Below, in pieces: positions 17,591 to 26,440 of a stretch of DNA of 36,358 nucleotides. The notes below the pieces were generated by a model that was not told the origin of the DNA, did not search any database, and was given only the letters and a program-made list of their open reading frames with translations. The number at the start of each line of letters is the position of its first letter. Position 1 is the stretch's first letter. A program made the translations under genes and the position numbers. Origin of the DNA: a virus. The stretch spans positions 1 to 36,358 of IMG/VR virus record IMGVR_UViG_3300017770_000054; one strand, given 5' to 3'.

Positions 17591-20500
17591 TTATTTTTGA
17601 AGTATACCGCCTAGTCTTTGTTGATCTGTTATTACTTTAATTACAGCCTCTTCAATTTGTTTAGCGATATTATCAGCTTGGTCATTCACGCTGGTGTTTG
17701 TTCCGTTTGCTGTGCTTGAGTCGCTCCCTCCTTCATAGGAAGATGATGAGCCGCCTTTCGAGTCAACCGTAACATTAATATATACATCGCCAACGCCTCC
17801 ACCCCCACTTGAGCCTCCTCCTGAAGGGGAAAACCCGCCGCCTCCTGATGATGGGCTTGATTGTACAGCTATTAATATTTGAGATAAAAGGTCATTTTGT
17901 ATAGAGGCTTGTTCAACAAAATTTGAGCTATTCGAAACATTTGATACATTGGATGAATTGCGGACAGAAGAAGAGTTAGATCTAGATGAATTATTTATTT
18001 CCGTAGATTCAGATGTTTGGCTTTTGTCAATTACATTTTGTACGCTATTTGATATCTCTTGAGAAATAGTAGTATTTTGATTTTTAATTTCTTCTAAAAT
18101 AGATTGTAGTATTGCCGACTGATTTGTATTCGCTTCACCTGATTCTCCAGTCGTTATATTGTTTGTTGTTTTTGATTCTATTGTTTCTTTAAGTGTCTGG
18201 GTTTCACTTCTGGTTGACTCAGCTGTTTCTCCTTGCGTAATTAATGTATCTAAGATTTGTTGCAATAATTCAGATTGAGAGTCCATATTACTTGCCGCAG
18301 GCATAGGTATGTTCTTACCTACAACGCCACCTTTATTCAATCTTTGAGCATTAATACTATTAAAAAATGAAAGGCCATGCTTTTTGACGGCATCTTTATT
18401 TACTACAAATTCACCTCCAGTTAGCAGAGCTGGCACTCTGTCCTCAGATTCCCCACTGGCTCTGATGACTTTTCCTCCAACAGCCATTTTTCTTTTCCCT
18501 AGCAATCTTTGGGATTGATAATTAGTATACGTTCCTGAATTAAAGCCAGCTTTAGTGGCAGTTTCACTACTCGAAAAGCCGCCGCCTGTAGAGAAGTTTG
18601 AAGCTGCCGAAAGTCCCATCATTCCTGTTCCTCCAGAATTCATCCAATTTGTTCCCTGCATATTTATCATATTGCCGACTGTATTTCCGCCTCCTATTCC
18701 TTGATTAAGGTTAGCTCCTTTAAATCCTCCAAAAAAACCTGTTCTTTGTGAGACAGCTCCCATAGAATTTACTTGGAAGCCACTTCCTTGAAAACGTGCA
18801 TTTGTTGCGTTTTGACCTCTAGAGAATAAATTTTTAGTAAAACTTGTTGAGCCCCTTGTGTTTCCTCCTCCAGACCCTCCTGTCATTTGTATGTATGCTT
18901 GAGGATTGTTAATTCCGTTCATTGCAAATCTTGAGTTTGCTTTTGCAATATCAAAAGAGCCACCTTTACTGTAAAAGTCTCCAGAAGAAAAGCCTAGGTT
19001 GCCTGCAGCTGTATCTGTAAAGGAGCCAACTTGTGCTGGGCTAGGAGGGCCCATCATGTCGGGCGCCGACTTAATAGCTAAATTAGTAGCTTCCCCCTGG
19101 ATTGCTACCGTATTTGAGGCTTTTGCCATTTGGGTACTTTGAACCGCACCTTGTACCGCTGACAAACCAGCGCTAATTGCCGCTCCTATCAATACCCCTT
19201 TAATGGCGTCTTTAATCGCTTTCTTTTTCTGTTCTCTGTATTTTCTTAAAGCTTCCACGTTTCTGTCGTAAGCGCCAACAGCATCGAGAGCTTGCTGCTT
19301 TGCTTGCATTACTTCATCTGCAACAGGGCCGCTAATTAAACCTAAACCAGAAAGACGAGAGCTCTCATCTTCTAGCTGCATATTTATTCCGCCTCCTGAG
19401 CTGGCTGGCATTGCTTGACCGTAATCATCAATAGCGCCTGTTGACTGTATAACATCTAGAGCTCCTGAGGTTCCTGTCTGCTTTGCGAAAGCCATTAAAT
19501 TGTCTCGACCTTCGATATTGCCAGCTTCAAAAGTTCCAGCTTGGCCAAGAGATGAAATTAGGAAACCTCCTTCTCCTGTTTGATTTTCTAATTCTCTATT
19601 TGGGTCAGCGGGCCCAACTGTGCCTCCCTGGTTTCTTTGTTTGACTGTACCTGAATTTATTGATGTTAAAAAATCTTTGCCATATTTATTAACAGCAGAC
19701 TTTCTAATAACATACTCTCCGCTATTTAGCATGGCAGGAACATCATCTTTTGTTCCACTACCACCGTAAACTTCACCTCCGCCACTCCTTCTAACAACCC
19801 CGCCTTTAGAAAAGGGGCTAAAGCCTGGACCCATTATAGAATTTATCCCAGTATTTACAACGCCTAAAATTTGATCAGAAAGCCTTCTCTGGATGGCTTG
19901 ATTTAAAGTGTTTAAGAAAGAAAGGGCGACATCCTGAAAGGCTTCTTTCCAGGATTTTATACCCGCACCAGCTTCGGTTAGTGCCTTAGCCATGTTATCG
20001 GCAAATGTCCTAGGTAGATCCCTACCTATACTCTTGTAAAATCTAGTTTCACTTGTTTTGACATCATTATCATTAAGCGATACGCCACTCAAAAACATGT
20101 CTCTACGCGTCATGGGTCTCATTCCGCTTGCTCGCATTACCGCCTTGCCGTCTCTATTTTGCATATCGTATTGCATTTGCTGATCGAGGGCAAGATTCGC
20201 CGCTGCAGTTGTATCTCCTCGGGCTTTTGCTTCCATTATTGCACGATTAGCCTTTTGGGTATTGTCCGCTAATTGATTGAGTATGTTTCCTGCTTTTTTT
20301 GCGTTTTCTGATTGTTTGTCGATAGTTTTGATGTTATCTTCTATTGTCGCAGATTGTAGCTTTGTGGCATTACCTATTTGTACAATACTATCTCTGGAAT
20401 TAACTATTTCTGTAGCGAGCTCTGGAAATTTATTATTTATAACTGTAAGTTCCTTTTCAAAATCTTCAAAGGAGTTTATAGTTTTTGGGTCTATACCTGT

Positions 20501-23500
20501 AGCTTGTTGAAAGCCTTCTTGATTTTTTATAAAGCGTGAGGTAGATTGATCAATTGCGTTTTGTATCTTCTCTCCAATTTCCCCTTCAGGGACTCGTAAA
20601 GCTGAAATTTGAGCTAAAAGATCAGACTCTGCTGAGATTGGAATCTGTGATTCAGCCGATACGGTAACTGTATTATTTTTGATTCCATTTGAAACAGCAC
20701 TTTCAATTTTAGCTTGTGAGTTCGCGATCTCTTTTGTTAGCTGATTGATTTGCGCATCTATAGCAACTATTTTTTCAGTATTATCTGTTTGAGTGTTTGG
20801 CGCCGTGGAGGGCGCGCTTTGATCCCATTGGCCTGCATATGTTCCTCCTGGGCCTGTCATTAATTTATTACTTGAATTTAATTGCTGAGTGAATGGATTT
20901 GGCTGATTGAGCATTAAAAACCCATTATTATCAAATTGCAATCCAGACCAATCAGATTTTTGACTAGGGGCTCCTGAGTTATTTTGCAAATTTGCTCTTT
21001 CATTTTTTAAATTTTGGAGCTCTTGAGTTTTGCGATTTAAATCTTTTTGTTGTTGAATTTTTTTAGGATCTGATGGTCCCCCTTCAACAGGTTTAGGGCC
21101 AGTAGGTCCGTCCCCACCTAACTCATTAATAAGTCTGTCTATTGAGTCTGTTAATACTTGTATTCTTGCGTCGTTTTGAGATATTGTAGCTTTTAGACCT
21201 GAATTTGACTTAATAAGGGCGTCTTGCGCAATTTTAGTATTAAGGCTATTCATTACTTGCTTATCTAATTCAATCGTCAATTTTTCATTTAAGTATTTAA
21301 GCTGATTCTGTTCTATCTTTTTTCTTTTTTCGAGTTCTAATAACTGCTGTTTTACAGGATCTACGTTATCAAAGGGAGTCATATAACTTCTCTCGATATC
21401 TCCTTTCTCGCGTACTGCCCGTATATCTAAATCGCTTACTCTACTATCTAAGTTTGTTTTTTCAATTTGTAATAAATTATTTATTTGAGACCTTAGTGCG
21501 TTTTCTTTAGTCACATACTCTTTTGATTTCATAGAATTTTCAATAATTTCATTTTCTATTTTCAAGTTTGTTTCGAGCACAGATTGTCTTTCTTTCAAAG
21601 AGGCTACAAAATCAGTAATCGCTTGAGATGCATTACCAAAGGCTAATGATCCTGCTTCCAGACCTAACATTTTTTCTATTTTTTCTGGAGCCTCTAATAA
21701 AGTCATTAAGGTTTGTTCGTTAGCGTTTTCGATGTCTTTTTGAAATTGAGCAGCTTTTTCTGGAGTTATCTGATTGAATTCTGATTTTAATTGACTTAAA
21801 ATGTCTGTTTGCACTTTTATTCTTGCTTCAGAAATAGCAACCGTTTTTTCATATAAATTTTTATCTTTTGCTTGCTGTTTTAAATTTTCTTCTTCGAGAT
21901 TTAATCTTTTCGTGGTGGAAGCTGATAAGCCAATATAGTTGAGTTTAATTTTTTCTAAATCATTTTTAATTTTAATATCAGTTTCTAAAAAAGCTAAAGC
22001 GGTTTTACTCTTTAAGGCTGCTCTCTGCATAGACTTTTTAAGAGTTTGCATCTCTTTAAATGTATTAACCCCTTCTTTATATTTTTGTTCTAAAACTTGT
22101 TCTATTTTTTTACCTTCTCCAACAGATGCTCGAATTGCTTCATGTAAAGCTGTCAGGCCATCTTGATCTATAATGTCTTCTATAATATTGGTTATGTTTT
22201 CGAAGGCTGCGTCATCAATATCCCTGTCAAACCCTAACTCTTTTGTCATCATTTCAGCTCTTCCGTATGCACTAGTACTGCCTGTAGCTCTACTGGCTTG
22301 TATGGCTCTATTAGCTTGAGCTTCATCTAAGTTTGCGTTTCTTAAGGCTCCTCCCATTGCCTTAATTTGACTTTGTGACATAGAGTCTTTTCCGAAAAAG
22401 CTATCTAATCCAATTTCTTCGAGGAAACTGAGGCTGTCTACCTGTTCTTCGAATTTAACCATAGCTTCCATTATGGTAGCGTTATCGAGGTCTCGCTTGG
22501 AGAGGGATCTGAACTCTTTCATAACTGCATTTTGAGCTGATCTGTTTCCTCCTGCAGCCGCCATTGCTTCTCCGAATGTTTGGTTTTTCGAATTTAACCT
22601 ACCAGAGCCAACATCTTTAAATATACTTTCTAGTTCTGCTTTAAAAGAGTCTCTACCTTTTGTTATGTCTAGATTTTGAAATTTAGTAATTGCGGCCTCT
22701 ATCTCTCCGTATCGAGAAGAAGCATCTTGAGTGGCTTCAGTTAATTCTTCGACACTGAGCTTGACATCGGTCAAGCTCATCATTAAACCAGTGATGGCGC
22801 CACCTCCAGCGCCAATAGCTGTTCCTATTGCTGTGCCCACACCTGGAGCTATAGCTGTCCCAACGGTGCCCCCGAGCATAGCTCCTGTAGCTGTATATGA
22901 ACCTATATTCGAACCTAAGTTCCCAAAAAATCTTTCGGTTCCTGTTTGTTGAGCTCGAGAGCGTCCGCCCATTAACATTGCAGTTCCTTGATCTATAAAG
23001 CCTCCTGCCATTGGAAGTCCTATCATCATACCAAAGCCATCCATAGATTGACCCACTCTCTGCATTCCGCTTGTGGCTCTTGGAAATCTTTCGGCAAATC
23101 TACCCCCCATGTTCATGACGCCTTGTCTTGCTCGACCCATCATGCCTATACTTTGCATTGGATTGCCAGCTTGTTCTCTAGCTTGTTGAATTTGCTTTAA
23201 CGCTTCTTTTGCTGCATTTTTACCTAGGGCGGTTTTTTCTTTTTCAAATCCTAATTGTTTTAGGACTTCTTTAGTTTCTTCTTTTGTGGCGTCACTTTGA
23301 GCTAACCTAAGCATTACAGTTTCTTTTGTTAGCGTTCGCTGTTTGTCTATCGAGATTCCCCATCTCTTTAACATTTTTTGTAAATTTTCGCTAAGTCTTG
23401 TGCTCGAAGCTTCTATTTTGGCGAAATTGTTTACTACTTTACTACTGCCAAAGTCACCCCTTACCGCGGAGCGAGTAACGCCTCCTTCTTTTGCGAAATT

Positions 23501-26440
23501 TGGGACATCTCGCATTCCTCTTGGTTCATCTCTGGTATTGGTAACCGCAAGACCTAAAGGATTTCCTGAGTCTTTTAATTTACTGCTTTGATTAATCCTT
23601 ATTTTTGAAAGAGGCAAACCAGCTTGCTGTTCTCTTTTTATTGCTTCTATCAATGGATGATCTTTCGCAAAGCTTGGGATAAATCCTGAGGCAGCTGTCT
23701 GACCTATTTGAGATAAATAATGTTGCCTATTATCATTAAAGATTTTTTTAGCCATACTGTCAAATGTCCCCTTTTCTGCAGAAGCTTTAAAATCCATTCG
23801 GGATATTGATGATGGTATTCCGAAAAGCTGCCGAACTTTATTCATTGTGCCAGGAGATTTAGATGTATTACTAAGGTTAACATCAAAATCGCCTTTACCT
23901 CTTTCTGCAGACATAGCACTATCTATTCCGTATGCTTGAGCCACAGCGGCTTCAAATGCAGCTCCAACAGCTGCTCCAACAGCCCCCTTACCACCAGGCG
24001 TTGATTCTAGTTTTTTCTTTATCGTTGACGAATTGACCCCTTGGGTGCCTGATGGTCTAATTGCGTTTGAGAACTGGGCAGATGATTTAAAAATATTTCT
24101 AGAAACACTATCTTCTAAATTATTTTCTTCGGGATTGGTTGTTGCGCCAGTGGATGGGCTTTTAGGCCCAGCAACATACAAATTAGATAAGCTATATGGA
24201 TAGGTGTTGCTTCCCGATTTAAAGGTACCTATCCTAGTCTCTTCTCGTGCTGCAACTCTATTAATTTGAGGAATTAACGTGGCGTAACCAGTACCATCAA
24301 TTTTCATTCTTCTAGCGTCATCCGCCTCTCGCCTCGCTTGTTTTGATGCTACCGCATTTGCATCTTTTATTTTTTTACCTCTCTGGGCCGCCATATAAAT
24401 ATCAGTTGGCATATTTTGCGCTCCTGCCATAGAAATTTCATTTCTGCCGATTCTATCTGTGAGGCCTTGTAGACGAGCTTCCTTTTCTTCGGGTTTGAGT
24501 CGGTCAAAGCCTTCTAGATATTTTTTCATGGTCATCTTCGAAAAATTAGGAATGAATCCTTTATTCGCATATGGATCAAGCCCATGCATGTCTAATGCTT
24601 TTTGACGATGATTCTTACCTGCTCTAGAGTCTAGCGGCGGATTTATGAAAGGATCTTGAAAGCCTGGAACTTTTTTAACTTTTTCAGCGGTGTTATATAT
24701 GACCATTTGCCCACTTGGCATATCCATACTCTTGACAGAACCTGGAGCATAACCTCCTGCGATGGCGCCGCTTCTTTCTCTTTGCTTGGCATTAAAATTA
24801 GGTATGTATCCTGAAGAGCTTCTTCTTGCCCCTCGCTCAGGTATTATAAGATTTTCATTAGCTCCTATATTAACAGCTACTCTGGAAAGATGCTGGGCTA
24901 ATTTTACCTGCTCTCTTTGAGCGGCAGTTTGTTTTACAATTAAATCTAAAATAACCTGTTCTTGCTGCCTTTTTGTTTGACCTTGCCCGATTAAAGATCC
25001 TACGACTTCGTGATTACTGCGTAATAGATTTAAAATACTTTCTTGTACTGCTTTCTGTTTTTGAGCTTCAGAAGTCATTCCCATGAAGTTCGCAATACTA
25101 GTTTGAGCAAATTTAGCTACATCTACAAAGAGCTTACCAACAAGACCTAAAATTAAAACAGCTCCTGGCCCAGAAATAATATTTCCTATTCCTTTTAGAA
25201 AACCGTTTGCGAAGTTACTACCTATAGAATCTCCGTCAAGCACATTTGAGATTCCATCTGCGAGTCCGTTTACCGCTTTGAGTATTTTTTCAATTCCTGG
25301 ACCTACTGTGATTGACCCAATTTGTTCAGCTAGCTTCTGTAAACTTAAGCCTGTTTTGGTCAATAAAGCATCAAGCGTTTTATTTAATTGTTCATTTTTT
25401 TGTATAGCTTCATCTGTGGCGCCTGAAGATATTTGTATTGCTCTTGCTGTAATACTATTCTCTTTCCCTAAATCTCGCATTGCGGCTTTTAATGTATTGA
25501 TCTGAAACATTCCACCAACTAATTGAGCGATGTTAGATTGTTGGGACTGAGATAAAGTGTCGTATGTTTTCGCTAAATTTTCAAGAATTTTAATTGCTGG
25601 AATAACATTACCCTGCATGTCTTTCACGGCTACTCCTAGCATTTCTAATTGTTCTATAGTTTGAGGTCGTTGTATTCTTGTAAAAATTGTTTTAAATGAG
25701 TTACCAATAACGGCGCCTCCTCTAGCGGTAATCTGCTGAGCCGCTGTAATAGCTCCTATTAATTGATCGATATTCATTCCTGCATCTTGCGCAACTGCAG
25801 AAGCTCTGGATAAGCCATCGATTAAATCTTCTGAGCTAACCGCAAATGCCATATCAACGGCAGCAAGTTTGTTCATTATATTCGCCGTAGTTAAGCCTGC
25901 TTCGCCGAAAGCATTGATTGCTGCAGTCAGACCTTTAACCGAGTCTGCCGCCTTCATGCCAGTCAATCTTGTTAAAACAAGAGCATCATTCGTGCGCTTT
26001 AGAGTTTCTTCCATAGATAAGCCCTGCCTCGCAAATTCTGTAGCAGCAGAAGCTACTGAGTCAAAACTTTGGGCTGTATTTTTGGCAATTTTAAACAAGC
26101 TATTACCAAATTTGTCTAGATTTTGAGCGCTTGTGCCCATTACTACATTGATATCAGCTAAAGCTTTTTCGACTTTAATTGTTTGTACAACTAATTGAGT
26201 AAAAGCATCTTTAACTGAATTAATAACTGCAACTGAAGCTCCGAAAGCTACAACACGAGCATTAGATGCCTCAATCGATTTAGTAAATTCATCTGCGGCT
26301 CCAGTAATTCTACCTAAGGGCTGGGTGAAAGAACGATCATCAACATTTATCTTTAAAGGCTTGCGATTAAACTGATCCATAGCCTTCTGGATGGATCTTT
26401 CTAACCCTACTTGTTCGACTGGAAGTTTAAAAGTACTCAT
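17591..26440 (-). CDS. Tape measure protein (TP901-like core) with embedded cassettes
   Basis: This 2,949-residue protein sets tail length and is probably ejected with the DNA. Residues about 60-340 hold the TP901-type minor-tail core (ARVVAFGASVAVINSVKDAF, FARQGLSMEETLKRTNDAL, AFAVSSEDLIDGLSRASAVA, ARGGAVIGNSFKTIFTRI). Residues 540-985 carry G-Y/F-IPNF-type motifs separating compact cassettes, one of them nuclease-like. Hydrophobic Gly/Ala stretches at about 1187-1222 and 424-442 could cross a membrane. Coiled coils fill much of 1400-2000. Two copies of the tail-end motif DDVPAMLNSGEYVI...AVNKYG (about 2225-2262) and DRVPALLTGGEFVV...AVKKHG (about 2660-2698) follow. The C-terminus has a Gly/Ser region, VYINVTVD and QRLGGILQK, typical of the family. 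The start is 13 bases after GTGTAA. Confidence 0.95.
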   Translation of the reverse strand: MSTFKLPVEQVGLERSIQKAMDQFNRKPLKINVDDRSFTQPLGRITGAADEFTKSIEASNARVVAFGASVAVINSVKDAFTQLVVQTIKVEKALADINVVMGTSAQNLDKFGNSLFKIAKNTAQSFDSVASAATEFARQGLSMEETLKRTNDALVLTRLTGMKAADSVKGLTAAINAFGEAGLTTANIMNKLAAVDMAFAVSSEDLIDGLSRASAVAQDAGMNIDQLIGAITAAQQITARGGAVIGNSFKTIFTRIQRPQTIEQLEMLGVAVKDMQGNVIPAIKILENLAKTYDTLSQSQQSNIAQLVGGMFQINTLKAAMRDLGKENSITARAIQISSGATDEAIQKNEQLNKTLDALLTKTGLSLQKLAEQIGSITVGPGIEKILKAVNGLADGISNVLDGDSIGSNFANGFLKGIGNIISGPGAVLILGLVGKLFVDVAKFAQTSIANFMGMTSEAQKQKAVQESILNLLRSNHEVVGSLIGQGQTKRQQEQVILDLIVKQTAAQREQVKLAQHLSRVAVNIGANENLIIPERGARRSSSGYIPNFNAKQRERSGAIAGGYAPGSVKSMDMPSGQMVIYNTAEKVKKVPGFQDPFINPPLDSRAGKNHRQKALDMHGLDPYANKGFIPNFSKMTMKKYLEGFDRLKPEEKEARLQGLTDRIGRNEISMAGAQNMPTDIYMAAQRGKKIKDANAVASKQARREADDARRMKIDGTGYATLIPQINRVAAREETRIGTFKSGSNTYPYSLSNLYVAGPKSPSTGATTNPEENNLEDSVSRNIFKSSAQFSNAIRPSGTQGVNSSTIKKKLESTPGGKGAVGAAVGAAFEAAVAQAYGIDSAMSAERGKGDFDVNLSNTSKSPGTMNKVRQLFGIPSSISRMDFKASAEKGTFDSMAKKIFNDNRQHYLSQIGQTAASGFIPSFAKDHPLIEAIKREQQAGLPLSKIRINQSSKLKDSGNPLGLAVTNTRDEPRGMRDVPNFAKEGGVTRSAVRGDFGSSKVVNNFAKIEASSTRLSENLQKMLKRWGISIDKQRTLTKETVMLRLAQSDATKEETKEVLKQLGFEKEKTALGKNAAKEALKQIQQAREQAGNPMQSIGMMGRARQGVMNMGGRFAERFPRATSGMQRVGQSMDGFGMMIGLPMAGGFIDQGTAMLMGGRSRAQQTGTERFFGNLGSNIGSYTATGAMLGGTVGTAIAPGVGTAIGTAIGAGGGAITGLMMSLTDVKLSVEELTEATQDASSRYGEIEAAITKFQNLDITKGRDSFKAELESIFKDVGSGRLNSKNQTFGEAMAAAGGNRSAQNAVMKEFRSLSKRDLDNATIMEAMVKFEEQVDSLSFLEEIGLDSFFGKDSMSQSQIKAMGGALRNANLDEAQANRAIQASRATGSTSAYGRAEMMTKELGFDRDIDDAAFENITNIIEDIIDQDGLTALHEAIRASVGEGKKIEQVLEQKYKEGVNTFKEMQTLKKSMQRAALKSKTALAFLETDIKIKNDLEKIKLNYIGLSASTTKRLNLEEENLKQQAKDKNLYEKTVAISEARIKVQTDILSQLKSEFNQITPEKAAQFQKDIENANEQTLMTLLEAPEKIEKMLGLEAGSLAFGNASQAITDFVASLKERQSVLETNLKIENEIIENSMKSKEYVTKENALRSQINNLLQIEKTNLDSRVSDLDIRAVREKGDIERSYMTPFDNVDPVKQQLLELEKRKKIEQNQLKYLNEKLTIELDKQVMNSLNTKIAQDALIKSNSGLKATISQNDARIQVLTDSIDRLINELGGDGPTGPKPVEGGPSDPKKIQQQKDLNRKTQELQNLKNERANLQNNSGAPSQKSDWSGLQFDNNGFLMLNQPNPFTQQLNSSNKLMTGPGGTYAGQWDQSAPSTAPNTQTDNTEKIVAIDAQINQLTKEIANSQAKIESAVSNGIKNNTVTVSAESQIPISAESDLLAQISALRVPEGEIGEKIQNAIDQSTSRFIKNQEGFQQATGIDPKTINSFEDFEKELTVINNKFPELATEIVNSRDSIVQIGNATKLQSATIEDNIKTIDKQSENAKKAGNILNQLADNTQKANRAIMEAKARGDTTAAANLALDQQMQYDMQNRDGKAVMRASGMRPMTRRDMFLSGVSLNDNDVKTSETRFYKSIGRDLPRTFADNMAKALTEAGAGIKSWKEAFQDVALSFLNTLNQAIQRRLSDQILGVVNTGINSIMGPGFSPFSKGGVVRRSGGGEVYGGSGTKDDVPAMLNSGEYVIRKSAVNKYGKDFLTSINSGTVKQRNQGGTVGPADPNRELENQTGEGGFLISSLGQAGTFEAGNIEGRDNLMAFAKQTGTSGALDVIQSTGAIDDYGQAMPASSGGGINMQLEDESSRLSGLGLISGPVADEVMQAKQQALDAVGAYDRNVEALRKYREQKKKAIKDAIKGVLIGAAISAGLSAVQGAVQSTQMAKASNTVAIQGEATNLAIKSAPDMMGPPSPAQVGSFTDTAAGNLGFSSGDFYSKGGSFDIAKANSRFAMNGINNPQAYIQMTGGSGGGNTRGSTSFTKNLFSRGQNATNARFQGSGFQVNSMGAVSQRTGFFGGFKGANLNQGIGGGNTVGNMINMQGTNWMNSGGTGMMGLSAASNFSTGGGFSSSETATKAGFNSGTYTNYQSQRLLGKRKMAVGGKVIRASGESEDRVPALLTGGEFVVNKDAVKKHGLSFFNSINAQRLNKGGVVGKNIPMPAASNMDSQSELLQQILDTLITQGETAESTRSETQTLKETIESKTTNNITTGESGEANTNQSAILQSILEEIKNQNTTISQEISNSVQNVIDKSQTSESTEINNSSRSNSSSVRNSSNVSNVSNSSNFVEQASIQNDLLSQILIAVQSSPSSGGGGFSPSGGGSSGGGGVGDVYINVTVDSKGGSSSSYEGGSDSSTANGTNTSVNDQADNIAKQIEEAVIKVITDQQRLGGILQK
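23486..24823 (-). other. IPNF-bounded cassettes in tape measure, incl. nuclease-like domain
   Basis: Tape-measure residues about 540-985. Boundary motifs are GYIPNF (544-549), GFIPNF (628-633), GFIPSF (919-924) and VPNF (979-982). The 629-919 cassette contains GAAFEAAVAQAYG (Glu830), GDFDV (Asp851, Asp853) and MDFKAS (Asp883, Lys885), the order E...D...D-x-K expected of a PD-(D/E)XK nuclease fold. The 920-978 cassette has GLPLSKIRINQSSKL, then NPLGLAVTNTRDEPRG, which I do not recognise functionally. Domain assignment is by pattern only. Confidence 0.5.

Follow-up and report, generated by a model that had tools for sequence, protein, structure and literature searches.

Can the ruler of a phage tail double as a carrier of enzymes? 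The question arises from a viral DNA stretch of 36,358 nucleotides (IMG/VR record IMGVR_UViG_3300017770_000054, positions 1 to 36,358; 'the window' below), a 36-kb fragment whose largest minus-strand open reading frame (ORF), 17591-26440, encodes a tail tape-measure protein (TMP). An earlier note had placed a PD-(D/E)XK nuclease-like domain inside this protein, in a cassette that might be swapped between relatives. Its reading of ORF, strand, frame and coordinates was correct: residue n of the TMP begins at 26440-3(n-1), so that positions 24058-23726 are residues 795-905, and the segments GAAFEAAV (E830), GDFDV (D851, D853) and MDFKAS (D883, K885) do lie between GFIPNF at residue 628 and GFIPSF at residue 919. 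The best explanation, given about an even chance, reads the domain as enzymatic, most probably a nuclease that depends on metal and has a PD-(D/E)XK-like site, and as an exchangeable cassette of a polymorphic array in the TMPs of siphophages; its presumed activity and delivery are weighed below.

Conservation of the catalytic-type residues

Relatives were collected by three scans of IMG/VR for the boundary motif, which gave at least 250 non-redundant ORFs, many of them from fragmentary loci. All counts of ORFs, copies, motifs, families and arrays refer to these listed ORFs, and L-numbers label the loci compared. An iterated profile found the domain in 154 of the 250 listed TMP ORFs, in 165 copies altogether. 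Across this family the positions of E830, D853, D883 and K885 are nearly invariant (Table 1; D or E at 883 in 164 of 165), as are G826 (164/164) and a K or Q at 899 (160/160), with F829 close behind (150/164). Exact percentages are biased upward, since a profile favours its own conserved columns; when 56 whole cassettes were aligned independently with MAFFT (mean column identity 16%), the only invariant columns were G, E, D and K. The expected conservation of the acidic residues and the lysine was thus borne out at four positions and failed at D851, which is present in only 29 of 165 copies and is rejected as a catalytic residue; D853 is therefore the catalytic-type acid.

The bare pattern E..D..(D/E)xK is not above chance: shuffled cassettes match two regular expressions for it at rates of about 4% and 7%. 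The observation is judged real on account of conservation across homologues. Unless the domain has a function, near-complete conservation of catalytic-type positions, at about 20% overall identity, is hard to account for. The order G-x-x-F-E, D, (D/E)xK, with D and E alternating at the third acid, is a hallmark of PD-(D/E)XK enzymes; E, D and (D/E)xK are conserved in this order both in the 165 copies and in the 56-row alignment. On sequence grounds, the signature of the active site resembles that of PD-(D/E)XK enzymes.

Purifying selection on the core is strong. The ratio of nonsynonymous to synonymous substitution (dN/dS) in the core is 0.053 between the window and L004, and 0.081 between the window and L003; the corresponding values for residues 1000-2050 are 0.37 and 0.33, and residues 628-730 give 0.52 against L004 (several dS values are near saturation, so that the ratios are approximate). 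These figures bear on the proposal that the segment is structural filler in a fast-evolving ruler, the shared residues reflecting ancestry. In its favour, TMPs are long, variable and often mosaic-looking for trivial reasons (PMC10684548); near-invariance at about 20% identity is limited, however, to residues of catalytic type, the core ratio is as low as 0.05-0.08, and several other cassettes match enzyme families. Filler is accordingly held to be improbable.

Table 1. Features of the TMP gene and its nuclease-like cassette, in window coordinates
Feature	Coordinates	Strand	Residues	Basis or remark
Boundary motif 1, GYIPNF	24794..24811	-	544-549	sequence motif
Boundary motif 2, GFIPNF, left cassette edge	24542..24559	-	628-633	sequence motif
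Nuclease-like cassette, Type I layout	23687..24559	-	628-918	segment between motifs; AlphaFold2 model of 628-926
Nuclease-like core	23726..24043	-	800-905	hidden Markov model family of 165 copies; dN/dS
E830, helix acid of GxxFE motif	23951..23953	-	830	E 159/164, D 5/164; helix 190-209 of model
D853, second acid	23882..23884	-	853	165/165
D883, third acid, of (D/E)xK	23792..23794	-	883	D 116, E 48, G 1, of 165
K885, lysine of (D/E)xK	23786..23788	-	885	164/164
Boundary motif 3, GFIPSF, right cassette edge	23669..23686	-	919-924	sequence motif
Degenerate fourth motif, DVPNFA	23492..23509	-	978-983	closes a short final segment of about 59 amino acids (aa)
Tail tape-measure protein (TMP)	17591..26440	-		2949 aa, bears cassette array; PhageMin_Tail PF10145 E=3.5e-26; phrog_4211 E=4.2e-52
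PhageMin_Tail domain	25523..26086	-	119-306	constant N-terminal part

Motif-bounded cassettes and their exchange

The boundary motif has the consensus A-[AS]-x-G-[FY]-[IV]-P-N-F-A (from 837 copies). In its strict form it occurs 845 times in the 250 listed ORFs, where shuffling predicts 0.2, and it is absent from other ORFs of the same loci; as the loci were found by the motif, its multiplicity counts as evidence and its presence does not. Most of the listed TMPs have 2-9 copies, the first typically near residue 545 or 630 (L003 and L004 share an equivalent of the window's degenerate DVPNFA). The cassettes so bounded are internal, at about residues 545-1700, and not C-terminal like the variable domain of polymorphic toxins.

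Cassettes are exchanged at these motifs. In five comparisons, covering four TMP pairs, nucleotide identity is lost at the motif on one side of the exchanged segment and regained at the motif on the other, so that the suspected swapping between related TMPs is confirmed, with boundaries exactly at the GFIPNF motifs. In L055 and L086 the flanks of the array are 98% and 95% identical and the short cassettes 89% and 96%, against 28% for the nuclease cassette. L283 is without two cassettes of L268 (167 and 157 aa), among neighbours that are mostly 97-99% identical; L146 and L271 have three cassettes in common at 95-98% and differ in the fourth; and a single slot holds a nuclease-like variant with D-A-H in L019 and a staphylococcal nuclease (SNase) cassette in L088, the next cassette being 91% identical. 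A constant delivery part with exchangeable domains, the arrangement of polymorphic toxins, is thus present, the domains being candidate effectors. The neighbouring genes (immediate flanks) are 90-99% identical in L268/L283, L136/L212 and L146/L271 despite the cassette differences; within these flanks no immunity gene was seen to change with the cassette.

Exchange might also suggest a mobile nuclease that is selfish, like an intein or a homing element, and invades TMP genes, the more so as nuclease genes are described, in PMC10448857, as common at boundaries of genetic exchange between phages. The domain lies in frame within an uninterrupted ORF and has no Hint or intein match, on which grounds an intein or homing element was rejected; moreover, the same boundaries serve many cassettes that are not nucleases, and among the pairs compared there is no allele from which the nuclease is simply missing. 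The data already point to the nuclease trading places with unrelated cassettes at the motif and leaving no sign of self-splicing or homing. Such a selfish element is very improbable.

The variety of what is exchanged is large. Inter-motif segments of at least 100 aa number 386, of which 149 have the nuclease-like domain; the 237 others fall into at least 118 families at the threshold used. Among these others are matches to enzyme families: SNase (2.3e-9), GNAT (7.2e-8), the cytidylyltransferase-related HIGH_NTase1_ass (3.3e-8), GHKL ATPase (HATPase; 3.9e-5) and, weakly, P-loop (0.0038). The SNase-like cassette lies between GFIPNF motifs in five TMPs: L103 (8736-9362, minus strand; PF00565 E=2.3e-9), L007, L088, L110 and L253. 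One polypeptide can include several disparate enzyme domains, as L103 does (SNase and other cassettes); the window TMP has one recognised cassette.

The nuclease-like family is widespread. An array set was defined as the 87 TMP ORFs, among the matches listed, with an N-terminal anchor and at least 300 aa past the last motif. The family occurs in 74 of these, once in 69 and twice in 5; L109 was added as a carrier at a relaxed threshold. Several arrays without it have SNase or a nuclease-like variant instead. Taken together, and with confidence again about halfway, the TMP of a large group of uncultured siphophages may be a modular effector magazine, in which one to eight motif-bounded, swappable segments, of at least 119 families and in most cases including a fast-diversifying nuclease-like one, would be delivered at genome entry.

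Some cassettes were noted in passing. Candidates seen by eye include a HEXXH zincin and HAD-like (DxDxT), ADP-ribosyltransferase-like and kinase-like domains; the ADP-ribosyltransferase look is that of L266:837-1098, L041:632-855 and L259:223-426, which start with TTLYRG or TLFRG and have no Pfam match. The commonest non-nuclease cassette (L301:73-242 and 20 relatives) has a P-loop-like GPAGSGKST, with a weak AAA_30 match (E=0.0038, L091). The 584-aa cassette L027:954-1537 matches a GHKL/HSP90-type ATPase (PF13589, E=3.9e-5) and has HEAAH near its end. A family related to the nuclease-like one (L102:630-820, L094:551-738, L019:499-682 and L044:66-231, in ORF residues) shows GRxFE, D and GxGH, with D-A-H or D-A-Y in place of DxK; hhalign relates it to the window family at 48%. 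Its active site may be of another kind, or the family may be inactive.

Fold and function

Structure prediction, proposed in the earlier note as a check, went part of the way. AlphaFold2 models of window residues 628-926 (predicted local distance difference test, pLDDT, 84.9; predicted template-modelling score, pTM, 0.73) and of a second family member, from L268 (pLDDT 86.4, pTM 0.81), are confident and have some of the core elements: in both, E belongs to a helix, D adjoins a strand that is very short, and (D/E)xK falls on a strand with a helix after it. No nuclease, however, was matched to them by Foldseek.

Several points weigh against the reading of a delivered nuclease. Searches with the domain in Pfam, PHROGs and PDB sequences gave no match. 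Comparison of the family profile by hhalign with UPF0102 and with Mrr gave probabilities of 1.0% and 1.8%, neither significant, where the positive control (UPF0102 against Mrr) gave 97.3% with E 1.7e-11. The predicted secondary structure, helix(E)-short strand(D)-strand(DxK)-helix, has no clear first core strand. For the window model the best Foldseek match, to unrelated G-protein chains, had E 0.012 (prob 0.21), and for the second model the best E was 0.34; neither model against PDB, nor the one run against BFVD, found anything significant, the top matches having TM below 0.25 and being noise. Presence in 74 of 87 arrays could fit a housekeeping role in phage DNA handling equally well; a folded domain of 290 aa may be too large for the tail lumen; and delivery with the TMP is, for all these phages, argued from TMP biology.

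As neither profile nor structure comparison matched a nuclease fold, membership in the PD-(D/E)XK superfamily is not established, and the label 'nuclease-like' is used. Residue order and the D/E alternation survive from the original assignment; profile-level homology to a known PD-(D/E)XK family was not found with hhalign, Pfam or PDB sequences. A different catalytic domain, for example an RNase, a phosphodiesterase or an enzyme of nucleotide signalling, with a similar acid/acid/acid-lysine site on an undescribed fold, would account for confident models that resemble nothing in PDB and for the lack of Pfam or PDB sequence matches. It would account less well for the residue order and for an alternation of D and E at exactly the third acid, both typical of PD-(D/E)XK, or for the best UPF0102 alignment, which, though not significant, places G826, E830, D853 and K885 on the G, E, D and K of that family. 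The alignment is suggestive but not significant; such a domain is considered rather unlikely.

The cassettes occur in two layouts. In Type I, as in the window, a beta-rich part precedes the catalytic core; in Type II (e.g. L268 residues 628-815) the catalytic E comes about 20 aa past the motif and the beta-rich part follows. Circular permutation between the two, considered on account of a similar 'LhP' strand upstream or downstream, was rejected when a profile test was negative (prob 0.2%), and a relation by permutation is kept as a possible idea.

If the domain is a nuclease, on what would it act? The main functional rival to an effector has it act on the phage's own DNA, trimming or releasing the end of the genome in contact with the TMP, or processing the DNA at entry. 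A core function fits better than an optional weapon with a domain found in so many arrays, and in 69 of them in exactly one copy. Yet its sequence diversity goes far beyond housekeeping need, its alleles are swapped between near-identical TMPs, a natural swap puts an SNase cassette into the nuclease-like slot, and some arrays do without it and have other domains. Action on the phage's own DNA is judged unlikely.

Cassette exchange and the company of other enzymes favour an effector or counter-defence role: a nuclease that is near-universal yet hypervariable, has swapped alleles and sits among other enzymes resembles an effector of takeover or counter-defence more than a structural part. Precedents from phage P23-45, from the effector Tme and from the lambda TMP suggest that the cassettes are carried along by the TMP to act inside the host. 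The TMP would be ejected together with the genome and would reach or cross the inner membrane; linkers at the motifs might let single domains pass through the tail tube and fold on exit; and the nuclease could then act early, on host, plasmid or rival-phage nucleic acid. Sequence change around fixed catalytic residues, and the swapping of alleles, may reflect an arms race over a target or an inhibitor.

Tail module, relatives and known systems

The gene setting is that of a siphovirus-type tail module. The ORF matches several PHROG families of tail-length tape measure and has its TMP domain within a module that includes a 2005-aa FN3 protein with tip-attachment-like Ig matches, and proteins of the tail fibre, of which one bears an S74 endosialidase chaperone. 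Over residues 1-543 the TMP is 96-97% identical to L003 and L004, and a conserved C-terminal part follows the cassette region. Residues 1000-2050 (20291-23443, minus strand) are the most variable long stretch against these two loci (29-33% identity), between the 96-97% N-terminus and a 75% C-terminus.

Close relatives of the window cassette number three in IMG/VR (79-90% identical, same TMP lineage; contigs of 48, 194 and 203 kb). Neither the cassettes nor the region around the first motifs has a cultured relative in INPHARED, and the TMP N-terminus matches known TMPs at just 23-28%. A motif search of 84,980 species genomes gave one multi-motif ORF, in L310, a 4-kb contig of a Proteobacteria metagenome-assembled genome that resembles phage DNA; the other matches were single and chance-like.

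No paper using the motif turned up in the open-licence PMC literature (preprints lay outside the search). TMP-fused enzymes, polymorphic toxins and polyvalent proteins are already known; new, as far as searched, is a phage TMP with an internal array of exchangeable cassettes set between motifs. A survey of mosaicism in phage proteins confirmed no genuine recent case in TMPs (PMC10684548); the TMP pairs described here are such cases, with exact boundaries. If the proposal is right, the tail ruler of many environmental phages also delivers swappable enzymes, which links tape-measure biology to that of polymorphic toxins and polyvalent proteins, and there is a large set of candidate early effectors, the nuclease-like ones foremost, with a marker motif for finding them. 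It would bear on which molecules other than DNA go into the cell with the TMP, and on the passage of folded domains through the tail tube.

Among enzymes, UPF0102/YraN and Mrr have, as the window domain does, a GxxFE-type helix followed by D and then by (D/E)xK; the window domain differs in the spacing of D and DxK, about 30 residues that include a helix, and in having no Foldseek match. Among carriers, polyvalent proteins (PMC5512222) are likewise multi-domain and thought to be injected with DNA, and include peptidase, ADP-ribosyltransferase, GNAT, methylase and other enzymes; their carriers are delivered from the head or by conjugation, without GFIPNF boundaries, and tape measures go unmentioned in that paper. 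The MuF polymorphic toxins of temperate phages (PMC5576092) are also phage-carried, with a constant delivery part and a variable toxic domain. Theirs is a C-terminal toxin on a head protein, and immunity partners are described for polymorphic toxins; the window family has internal cassettes on a tail protein, with no exchanged neighbour gene seen in three pairs.

In P23-45 the TMP (gp96) includes an RNA polymerase domain that transcribes the pre-early genes and is found in the virion as full-length TMP (PMC10770324); in lambda, the TMP becomes labelled from ManZ, a protein of the inner membrane, while injection proceeds (PMC13190303). Like gp96, the window TMP would be a siphophage TMP with an enzyme inside it that acts at genome entry; gp96 has a single N-terminal RNA polymerase and no motif-bounded exchangeable array, whereas the nuclease-like domain lies mid-protein. 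Tme, a TMP-related effector from the contractile injection system of Streptomyces davawensis, has a C-terminal endonuclease domain that is required for its phenotype (PMC11126660). Tme and Sle1 (PMC13277306) resemble the window TMP as TMP-like carriers of a variable functional domain, an endonuclease in Tme. They are effectors of bacterial contractile injection systems, with a C-terminal domain and an EndA-type DRGH/HNN nuclease; the window has a phage TMP, internal cassettes and an E/D/(D/E)xK site.

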